21,338 nt of DNA. Source: a virus. Positions 5,825 to 19,888 of this stretch are shown here, in pieces. The DNA lies in the IMG/VR virus record IMGVR_UViG_3300035698_001876, positions 1-21,338 of that record. One strand, given 5' to 3'. How positions within the stretch are numbered: position 1 is the first letter of the stretch; each line of letters opens with the position of its first letter. The translations under genes and the position numbers were made by a program. The notes beneath the pieces are model-generated. The model searched no databases, was not told the DNA's origin, and worked only from the letters and a program-made list of their open reading frames with translations.

Positions 5825-6322
5825 ATGAGTACAACTCTACAAGGCGGTTACACACCTCCTTCAAAACTAGACAAAAACGGTTGGATCACCCCGCCTGAAG
5901 TAAAAGATCCTAAGAACTTACCTCTTCCTCTCGGTTGGACACTTCTTGTTCGCCCTTACCCCGTAATTAATGCTAAAACAAGTACTATTATCATGCCAGA
6001 GACTGACATTGACTATATGAACTATGTTTCTAATATAGGGCGTGTTGTTGCTGTTGGTCCTTGTTGTTGGACTCGTCCTGAACACCGCGATGTGGATGGT
6101 AATAGATTTGCGTGGGTAAAAGAAGGTGACTTTGTAAGCTACCCTAAAAACGCAGGGGCACGTAGAAAATTCAAAGGTGTTTCGTATGTTCTTTTAGTAG
6201 ACGATGAAGTTGTTGAAAAGTTAGAAGACCCTCAAATATTTGATGGTGATTTTTACACGTTAGACATTCCTGAAGACCATTTAAAGAAATACAACACCAT
6301 TCATAAGAAGGAGACTAAATAA
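5825..6322 (+). CDS. GroES-like co-chaperonin (Cpn10 family)
   Basis: 165 aa against about 97 for bacterial GroES, with extra residues at both ends. GroES caps the GroEL folding chamber; phage versions such as T4 gp31 adapt it to fold capsid proteins. The Cpn10 core runs from about 34 to 136: PLGWTLLVRPYP (first strand), a loop containing TIIMPE (53-58), where IIM (55-57) matches the position of the IVL tripeptide that contacts GroEL, then IGRVVAVGP (71-79), a longer roof-loop region with two cysteines (80-81), VKEGDFVSYP (98-107), and YVLLVDDEVVEKLED (121-135). The N-terminal 33 residues are proline-rich and unmatched; the tail (about 137-165) is charged. AAAGGA supports ATG 5825. It sits between portal and scaffold, so a role in prohead assembly with host GroEL is likely but inferred. 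Confidence 0.85.
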   Translation: MSTTLQGGYTPPSKLDKNGWITPPEVKDPKNLPLPLGWTLLVRPYPVINAKTSTIIMPETDIDYMNYVSNIGRVVAVGPCCWTRPEHRDVDGNRFAWVKEGDFVSYPKNAGARRKFKGVSYVLLVDDEVVEKLEDPQIFDGDFYTLDIPEDHLKKYNTIHKKETK

Positions 6323-10598: not shown

Positions 10599-11735
10599 AT
10601 GTCTACTTATAGCACCATATCTGACTTAACTTTAGCTTCGACAATAGACGCAGCGGATGTCTTTGAGATTGAGTCAGGCGGGGTATCAAAAAAAGTAACT
10701 CAAAGTACTCCTAAATCTGTTACCATTACTACTACGGCAGCGTTTACGGGGGGGCTTGAAACGGTAGCTAAGCTGGGTGTACACACCGTTAACTTCAATC
10801 CTACGGCAGACAGTGAAGATATTGCCACTGGTTTGATGCGTAAAGTTGATTATCAAAGTGACTTTAACTTTACAGGTTCAGGGCATCTTATTGCAGGTTA
10901 CGACTATTTCTCAGTTTCAGGTAATGGGGATATATCACAGGGTTTTGTCCACGAAAGTAAATTCAAGAAGTCTGGCACAGGGGACATGGGTTCACTTGTT
11001 ATGTATAAACCTTCTATCGACACGTTAGCGGAAGGTACAATCGCAGCCTTTACTATTCTTGAAAATAATATCGATTTAGGGGCTACCTCAGCAACAGTCA
11101 CAGACGCGTACATTATTAAAAACTCATCCTCTGACTTTAAATTAGAGACAGCAGGTCAAATTTTAGCTGCTAGTGGGGGGGAGGTAATGTCTTCCGCACA
11201 CGCAGGTATAGCGGCAAATAACTACTACTTCCCAGCTAATTGGGGCTCTTCGTCTACCCTAGCCTTTAATCAAAGTGTTCTAGTGGGTTCTATGCCATTT
11301 CACGTACCCGCGCGAACTACTTTTACTCGTATTGGTGTTGAAATCACTGTTAATGGTGGGGCAGGTAACGTGACACGTTTAGGTATTTATAAGTTTACTA
11401 ACGGTGTACCCGATACCCTTGTTCTCGATGCGGGTACCGTGGATTGCTCTACGACAGGGGTGAAAGAAATAACAATAGCACAAACACTTGAAGCAGGTGT
11501 TTACTCGTTAGTATACCAAAACACTGGTGGCACGGGTGCGGCTACAGCGCGTTCTATTGCCTATACCGAAGGCGAGATTATAAAACACTTTGGTCATGTG
11601 GGGGCTGATCCAGCTTCTAACACGGCACAAGATTGGTTGTACGTAACAAATTCTGGGGCTTTACCAAGTCCTTTTGGAAGTGTAACAAGACTTCGTGTTG
11701 GGGGTCTCCCAGCCGTATTTTTAAGGGTTGTTTAA
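10599..11735 (+). CDS. Tail fibre-like protein
   Basis: 378 aa, rich in Thr, Ser, Gly and Ala. The N-terminus, TISDLTLASTIDAADVFEIES (5-25, cited in part) followed by VSKKVT, is a short module seen at the start of many phage fibre proteins. The middle (about 45-195) has alternating hydrophobic strands with aspartate-rich turns. The C-terminal part (about 220-330), PFHVPARTTFTRIGVEITVNGG (cited in part), then TRLGIYKF, then LEAGVYSLVYQNTGG, looks like a beta-sandwich of the type found at fibre tips. AAAGGA precedes ATG 10599, and the stop is 3 bp before the next start. It is likely a receptor-binding or head/tail fibre protein; which host structure it meets cannot be told. Confidence 0.6.
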   Translation: MSTYSTISDLTLASTIDAADVFEIESGGVSKKVTQSTPKSVTITTTAAFTGGLETVAKLGVHTVNFNPTADSEDIATGLMRKVDYQSDFNFTGSGHLIAGYDYFSVSGNGDISQGFVHESKFKKSGTGDMGSLVMYKPSIDTLAEGTIAAFTILENNIDLGATSATVTDAYIIKNSSSDFKLETAGQILAASGGEVMSSAHAGIAANNYYFPANWGSSSTLAFNQSVLVGSMPFHVPARTTFTRIGVEITVNGGAGNVTRLGIYKFTNGVPDTLVLDAGTVDCSTTGVKEITIAQTLEAGVYSLVYQNTGGTGAATARSIAYTEGEIIKHFGHVGADPASNTAQDWLYVTNSGALPSPFGSVTRLRVGGLPAVFLRVV

Positions 11736-17757: not shown

Positions 17758-19209
17758 ATGTCAGGTGATACAAGATTGAAATTAATTGAGTTCCTCCCCG
17801 GTTTTAATAAGAACACAACTAACTATAGGGCTGAAAACTACTGGGTTGATGGGGATAAAGTGAGATTTCGTAATGGGAAGCCTGAAAAACTAGGTGGATG
17901 GGTGGGTGAAACTGTCGCTCAAAACACAGACGCAGCTATTAGTAATTTTACAGGTATATCTAGGAATGTGCATACTTGGACAGATTTAAGTTTCAATAAG
18001 TACTTTGCCACAGGCAGTGAGAAAAAGGTTGAGTTATTCACAGGTTCTCAGATATATGATGTAACTCCTTATAGAGAAACACTGACCCTTACAGATGTCA
18101 TAACAACTGCTTCAGGGGTATCTGTCGTTACGATAGCCGATACAAATCATGGTTTGACGGCGGGGGATTTTATTTACGTGGATAGTCAAGTAAGTTCAGT
18201 AGATGGTATATCCTTACTAGGAGAGTATGTAGTAGTTAGCGTTGTGGATACCGACAATTACACGATAGACTCAGGTACGTCTGCATCAGGTACAACAGCT
18301 AGTGATGGGGGTGACTTAGTTTTAAACTACTTACTAGAAAATGGGGACGTTGACAATGGGAATGTTTTAGGTTACGGCGGGGGTACTTTCGGTTCACCCG
18401 GATCGTCTGTGATAACTTCAGTTTCTCTTACAGACCCTCTTGACACAACTAGTGGCGACGCTACTGTAACCGTTAATGATGTAGCTCATGGGCTTGTCGT
18501 AGGAGACTTTATTACAGTTGTATCTCAAGCTTCTGCTTTAGATGGTATTGACTTAAGTGGAGGAGACTTTGAAGTAACGACAGTTGCGGGGGTAGATGAG
18601 TACACAATTGAAGCTGTAAATAACGTTACTTTAGTTGAAACAACTGCCACAGGGACTACTTCAGGTGGAGGTGGTGCGTTTGTTGTTCAGTATGGGGGAG
18701 AGGGTTGGGATAAGCCCCGCGCAGGAGTTGGGGGCTCTTTTCTTAGACAATGGTCTTTCGATAACTGGGGAGAGGATTTGATAGCGTGTGTGCGCAACGG
18801 TAAGATTTACCAATGGGATGCTTCTAACGGAACTTCTACACGCTTGCAAGTAGTATCTAATGCCCCTACACAAAATCTCATGGTTCTTGTAGCACAACCT
18901 TCTAGGCACTTAGTTGCTTTTGGTACACAAGAGTCTGTAGGAGATGTCTTTGACCCACTTACAATTAGGTGGGCGGCTCAAGAGACTTTAACTACGTGGG
19001 CTATTACAGCTACAAATACAGCAGGGGAATACCGTTTACCTAAAGGCAACTACATTGTTTCTGTTATTCAAACTAAAAATGAAATCATTATTCAAACTGA
19101 TAACACTGTGTACTCTATGCGATTTGTCGGGGGTAATGATGTTTTTCAGTTTGATATCTTAGCAGATAACGTTAGTGCTATTTCACAGAACTGTGGGGAC
19201 AGACATTGA
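17758..19209 (+). CDS. Tail nozzle-like protein, N-terminal frame
   Basis: 483 aa, ending in frame 0 at TGA 19207-19209, but almost certainly the first two thirds of a longer protein of about 709 aa. The family is the tubular/nozzle protein that closes the short tail of podophages. Conserved parts: EFLPGFNKNTTNYRAENYWVDGDKVRFRNGKPEKLGGW (11-48, seen as W-x-D-G-D-K-V-R-F-R-N-G), TIRWAAQETLTTWAI (402-416), and the end MRFVGGNDVFQFDILADNVSAI. Two tandem beta domains lie inside: NHGLTAGDFIYVDSQ (130-144) and AHGLVVGDFITVVSQ (243-257), each followed by DGI and a YTI strand. The frame then ends QNCG-DRH instead of continuing to the conserved glycine-valine-tyrosine strand found in the next frame. 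GAGAGGA precedes ATG 17758. Confidence 0.8.
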   Translation: MSGDTRLKLIEFLPGFNKNTTNYRAENYWVDGDKVRFRNGKPEKLGGWVGETVAQNTDAAISNFTGISRNVHTWTDLSFNKYFATGSEKKVELFTGSQIYDVTPYRETLTLTDVITTASGVSVVTIADTNHGLTAGDFIYVDSQVSSVDGISLLGEYVVVSVVDTDNYTIDSGTSASGTTASDGGDLVLNYLLENGDVDNGNVLGYGGGTFGSPGSSVITSVSLTDPLDTTSGDATVTVNDVAHGLVVGDFITVVSQASALDGIDLSGGDFEVTTVAGVDEYTIEAVNNVTLVETTATGTTSGGGGAFVVQYGGEGWDKPRAGVGGSFLRQWSFDNWGEDLIACVRNGKIYQWDASNGTSTRLQVVSNAPTQNLMVLVAQPSRHLVAFGTQESVGDVFDPLTIRWAAQETLTTWAITATNTAGEYRLPKGNYIVSVIQTKNEIIIQTDNTVYSMRFVGGNDVFQFDILADNVSAISQNCGDRH

Positions 19210-19888
19210 CGGTGTAGTATACTTTATGGGTACTAACAGTTTTTATATTTACGATGGCGTTGTACGTGTTCTTAAATCGTCCTTAGAAGAGTTTTACTTT
19301 GACCAAGATGGTGGGGGCAGGATTAATTACTCTCAAAAAGACAAGGTTTTCTGCGCGACAAATAAAGAGTTCAACGAATTGATCTGGTTAGTTCCGGTAG
19401 AAGGTAACGACGAGGTTTCAAGGTATATCCTTTATAATTACGTAGAAGGTACTTGGTGTGATGGTACTTTAGATAGGACTACATGGATTGATCGAAGTAT
19501 CTTTCAAAATCCTTATGCTATTGATTCTAGTGGTAAACTATTCGTCCACGAAGAAGGTAAAGATGACGACGCGAACGTTATGACTGCATTTTTACGTAGT
19601 GGTGATTTAGACTTAGACGAAGGTCAAGAGTTGATGTTTGTGGATCGTTTTGTTCCTGACTTTAAACTCGTACCTAACCGCAGTGCTAATTTGTACCTTT
19701 ATTTAAAGAAGTACCCTAACAGCCTTGAAGTTGAAAAGGGTCCGTATACTTTTGACAACAATACAGAGAAGGTTAGCCTTCGTGCACGTGCAAGACACGC
19801 TTCTATTAAGTATGAAGTAAGCACACTAGGCTCAGACTTTGAGGTAGGGTACCCTCGGTTTAGTCTTCAAACTGACGGGGGTAGGTAA
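19175..19888 (+). CDS. Tail nozzle-like protein, C-terminal frame (+1)
   Basis: 237 aa from a GTG at 19175 with no Shine-Dalgarno; it overlaps the previous frame by 35 bp and is very unlikely to start by itself. Read through in the +1 frame at the four G at 19195-19198, the joined protein reads ISQNCG then TDIDGVVYFMGTNSFYIYDG, which aligns without gaps to the family pattern N-G-x-V-x-W-M-G-x-x-x-F-x-x-Y-D-G. Further family marks follow: YNYVEGTWCDGTLDRTTWID and a strand-rich C-terminus with VDRFVPDFKLV. So this is the C-terminal third of the nozzle protein, reached either by programmed +1 frameshifting or because the sequence carries one extra G. The next gene starts 5 bp after the stop. Confidence 0.75.
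   Translation: MLFHRTVGTDIDGVVYFMGTNSFYIYDGVVRVLKSSLEEFYFDQDGGGRINYSQKDKVFCATNKEFNELIWLVPVEGNDEVSRYILYNYVEGTWCDGTLDRTTWIDRSIFQNPYAIDSSGKLFVHEEGKDDDANVMTAFLRSGDLDLDEGQELMFVDRFVPDFKLVPNRSANLYLYLKKYPNSLEVEKGPYTFDNNTEKVSLRARARHASIKYEVSTLGSDFEVGYPRFSLQTDGGR

Follow-up and report, generated by a model that had tools for sequence, protein, structure and literature searches.

The DNA analysed here (the window) is the 21,338-base stretch at positions 1 to 21,338 of IMG/VR virus record IMGVR_UViG_3300035698_001876, from an uncultured short-tailed phage. It carries the head and tail module of such a phage, with genes for the terminase, the portal, a GroES-like protein, the major head protein, tail proteins and the nozzle. 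The gene for the GroES-like co-chaperonin (5825–6322; phrog_3188, E 8e-9) separates the portal gene from the head genes. At the very start of the contig, positions 1–210 are occupied by an AT-rich tandem array made of 3.4 identical copies of the 30-base unit CATAACAAACAAACATAAGATTTATATTCC and adjoining 20-base units, which is probably either the point at which the assembly stopped or a noncoding array ahead of the terminase genes. A search for tRNA genes across the window returned none.

The nozzle gene is distributed over two reading frames as follows.

17758–19209, plus strand: frame-0 part of the nozzle gene, 483 aa, ending at TGA 19207–19209; matches positions 8–257 of the PHROG 3287 profile (E 5e-32) and is 66% identical to the relative locus L072.
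19192–19207, plus strand: zone of the frame change, in which the best-scoring positions, scored against L072, are 19195–19201 (GGGGACA).
19199–19888, plus strand: C-terminal part of the nozzle gene in the +1 frame, 229 residues, with its stop at 19886–19888; matches positions 260–523 of the PHROG 3287 profile (E 1e-19) and is 61% identical to L072.

Both open reading frames are present as the initial annotation had described them, with frame 0 ending at TGA 19207 and the protein continuing in the +1 frame, and the product sizes that it had predicted, 483 and about 709 aa, are correct. Residues ~1–480 of the frame-0 part derive from the family, the final three being an out-of-frame tail, while the +1 frame is open from 5′ of the junction through 19888. 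Because the two halves match consecutive parts of the PHROG 3287 profile (8–257, then 260–523), with nothing notable absent between them, the split is confirmed as a real property of the sequence as given.

PHROG 3287 comprises virion structural proteins, the phage ‘stabilization protein’ of the P22 gp10 kind, and its full-length profile is matched across the two parts of the gene, which also shares with this family its setting in a short-tailed phage morphogenesis module; the relatives checked differ from it in having one frame each where the gene here has two. A sequence profile built from the relatives matches solved phage tail proteins, including 9nwi_Y (2e-35) and 8zkk_O, annotated as ‘nozzle gp16’ (2e-16). 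The fold was examined on a structure predicted for the close relative L072 rather than on the broken protein. This model has a mean pLDDT of 71, rising to about 81–92 for residues 331–510, and it is most similar to nozzle and tail proteins of phages, at Z scores of about 22–30, showing the beta-propeller fold of nozzles. It resembles the nozzle or tail protein of Pa223 (9nwi, Z 30.5), VP1 gp16 (8zkk, Z 27.6), the SU10 protein (7z47, Z 27.4) and P22 gp10 (8u10 and 8eap, Z 25.1), these matches spanning 408–468 residues at an rmsd of 3.2–4.3. The gene product is thus an ordinary P22-gp10-like tail nozzle, and the name first given to it was the right one, both by profile matches and by the predicted fold of L072.

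Compared with the nozzles of Pa223, VP1, SU10 and P22, the branch represented here has an extra insertion in the N-terminal half, at roughly residues 110–330. Two similar segments, ‘VTIADTNHGLTAGDFIYVDSQVSSVDGI’ and ‘VTVNDVAHGLVVGDFITVVSQASALDGI’, lie within the insertion, in the stretch 18050–18700; the former shows similarity to an endosialidase beta-barrel domain (Pfam PF12195), at an E value of 1e-7 that is slightly short of the curated cut-off.

Around the junction, the nearest relative joins to the split gene without a gap, reading QHCG-IDTNG-IVYWMG against QNCG-TDIDG-VVYFMG here, and the longer alignment (VGQHCGIDTNGIVYWMG in L072, ISQNCG-TDIDGVVYFMG in the window) likewise contains zero gaps; the proposal that the joined reading fits the family gaplessly therefore holds against this relative. 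When every possible shift position was scored against L072, the best score fell at 19195–19198, a position three bases downstream was only 2 points lower, and all others were clearly lower. Since that second position is nearly tied, the frame change is resolved to about 19195–19201 and not uniquely to GGGG. The earlier assignment of the change to the four G or their immediate neighbourhood is accordingly right; judged from the alignment, the change likely falls at GGGG itself, although this is not proven. Distant relatives carry a similar N-C-G motif seven residues earlier, which can mislead alignment by eye. They also have about seven extra residues between the NCG-like and DxNG motifs, and a larger deletion in the window was considered on this account and rejected, as the L060/L072 sequence aligns without a gap.

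We then compared the junction across all fetched loci that cover it, searching with both halves. The resulting 53 loci represent 52 distinct contigs or genomes: 51 IMG/VR loci from 50 contigs (L060 and L072 share one), Roseobacter phage CRP-902 and phage DSL-LC04. At each of the 53, one frame runs through both halves uninterrupted by a stop, so that none of the 52 distinct relatives shares the split, and in CRP-902 and DSL-LC04 the nozzle is annotated as a single gene. The nearest relative, L060/L072 on IMGVR_UViG_3300029169_000029, encodes 711 aa in one frame. We also looked for a second copy of the phage itself; a search of viral_contigs for the junction pattern and a DNA comparison with the phage collection gave no match, and a protein search of genome_contigs gave no relative. 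The absence of the split from every relative checked argues that it most likely stems from a single inserted base and not from a deliberate ribosomal frameshift.

The initial annotation had raised such a frameshift as its main alternative to an indel, in which a glycine tRNA on GGG|G would re-pair one base on, in a programmed or leaky manner, and yield a 483-aa and a 709-aa product; if true, this would add a novel site of recoding, in a gene for a tail nozzle. Re-pairing on GGG|G is possible in principle. However, the relatives are not only unsplit, none of them has a shift-prone site, and L072 reads TGC GGT ATT at the corresponding place. In-frame GGG|G is moreover commonplace, occurring 56 times in the genes of the window and 12 times in the nozzle reading frame itself, so the presence of this tetranucleotide at the junction is uninformative in itself. 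The 0-frame codon that follows GGG is GAC, a common codon (33 per thousand), and the stop comes three codons later, which means that no slow A-site codon is present to promote slipping. As the earlier description had also stated, no Shine-Dalgarno-like stimulator is visible by eye in the bases preceding GGGG and there is no clear downstream RNA structure, the folding of this region being no better than that of shuffled sequences (z +1.15; separate folds +0.34, +0.22 and +1.63). Finally, the junction corresponds to residues 482/483 of the L072 model, within strand 482–485 of a beta-propeller predicted with confidence, and a product of 483 aa would therefore stop partway through this domain.

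A known example allows a direct comparison: in Listeria phage PSA, +1 frameshifting takes place on a proline codon lying just ahead of either a stop codon, as in the tail shaft case, or a pseudoknot (PMC5009743). PSA resembles the nozzle case in that a phage structural gene and the +1 direction are involved, whereas neither a pseudoknot nor a stop codon was found in that position at the nozzle site. A literature search on the decoding of GGGG produced nothing bearing on the nozzle. The programmed frameshift is therefore not supported, and we regard it as very improbable. A version restricted to this lineage, with a +1 shift at GGG|G giving two forms of the tail nozzle, is compatible with the comparison alone if the recoding site is very young, given that the nearest gene-bearing relative is only ~65% identical; we consider it less probable still.

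Another possibility is a genuinely split gene, whose two polypeptides would arise by reinitiation and associate non-covalently into the nozzle. In-frame start codons do exist near the overlap (GTG 19175, GTG 19193 and ATG 19226), but none of them is preceded by a Shine-Dalgarno-like sequence, in a phage in which AGGAG-like sites are found at many genes, and no convincing reinitiation signal was recognised there. The break would also fall inside predicted propeller strands, and no relative checked has a split; this arrangement ranks below both frameshift readings in our estimation.

An older, real inactivation in a defective or degrading phage lineage is the least probable of the explanations weighed. 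A frame break in a tail-assembly gene would, if real, inactivate it; however, the remaining genes of the window all look intact, each in one frame against L048, L060 or L072 wherever matched, and the +1-frame part, 229 codons long, contains no further stop and is conserved like the rest of the gene. Divergence by codon position follows the same pattern in the C-terminal part (0.31/0.21/0.53) and in the N-terminal part (0.28/0.20/0.59), and this equal conservation on either side indicates that the break, if real, is recent.

A private net +1 indel, introduced by sequencing or assembly error or by recent mutation, is thus very probably the explanation of the split. In the living phage lineage, the nozzle would be encoded in a single uninterrupted frame some 710 codons long, and the contig would carry a single indel of its own at ~19195–19201, making recoding unnecessary. 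The earlier caveat that an indel remained likely was well placed, the split being private among 52 relatives, and the annotation is corrected to a single nozzle gene instead of two.

As to the origin of the indel, we infer that it is probably a sequencing or assembly error, a genuine mutation that arose recently in the phage population sampled being possible and less likely. A benchmark of virome assembly counted under 2 indels per 100 kb in assemblies from short reads and 474 per 100 kb in those from unpolished long reads (PMC6487183). At these rates, a single indel in 21 kb agrees with the short-read expectation and is far below that for unpolished long reads. A counterpoint to an error is the shortness of the G run: homopolymer errors typically involve more than four bases. 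The further argument that longer G runs staying in frame speak against such an error is correct in its facts: runs of seven G are indeed present at 10748, 11175 and 13167, all three in intact open reading frames. It nevertheless counts for little, since an indel frequency of one per 21 kb is compatible with published error rates and a lone error does not have to fall in the longest run. More generally, a phage contig assembled from a metagenome can look recoded on account of one indel, and comparison of the junction among relatives settles most such cases.

At 19180–19198, a small inverted repeat, CACAG-AA-CTGTG, abuts the GGGG directly on its 5′ side. It is not seen at the corresponding place in L072, and the hairpin including the site folds only mildly better than shuffled sequences (z −1.6); such a hairpin could favour a local error.
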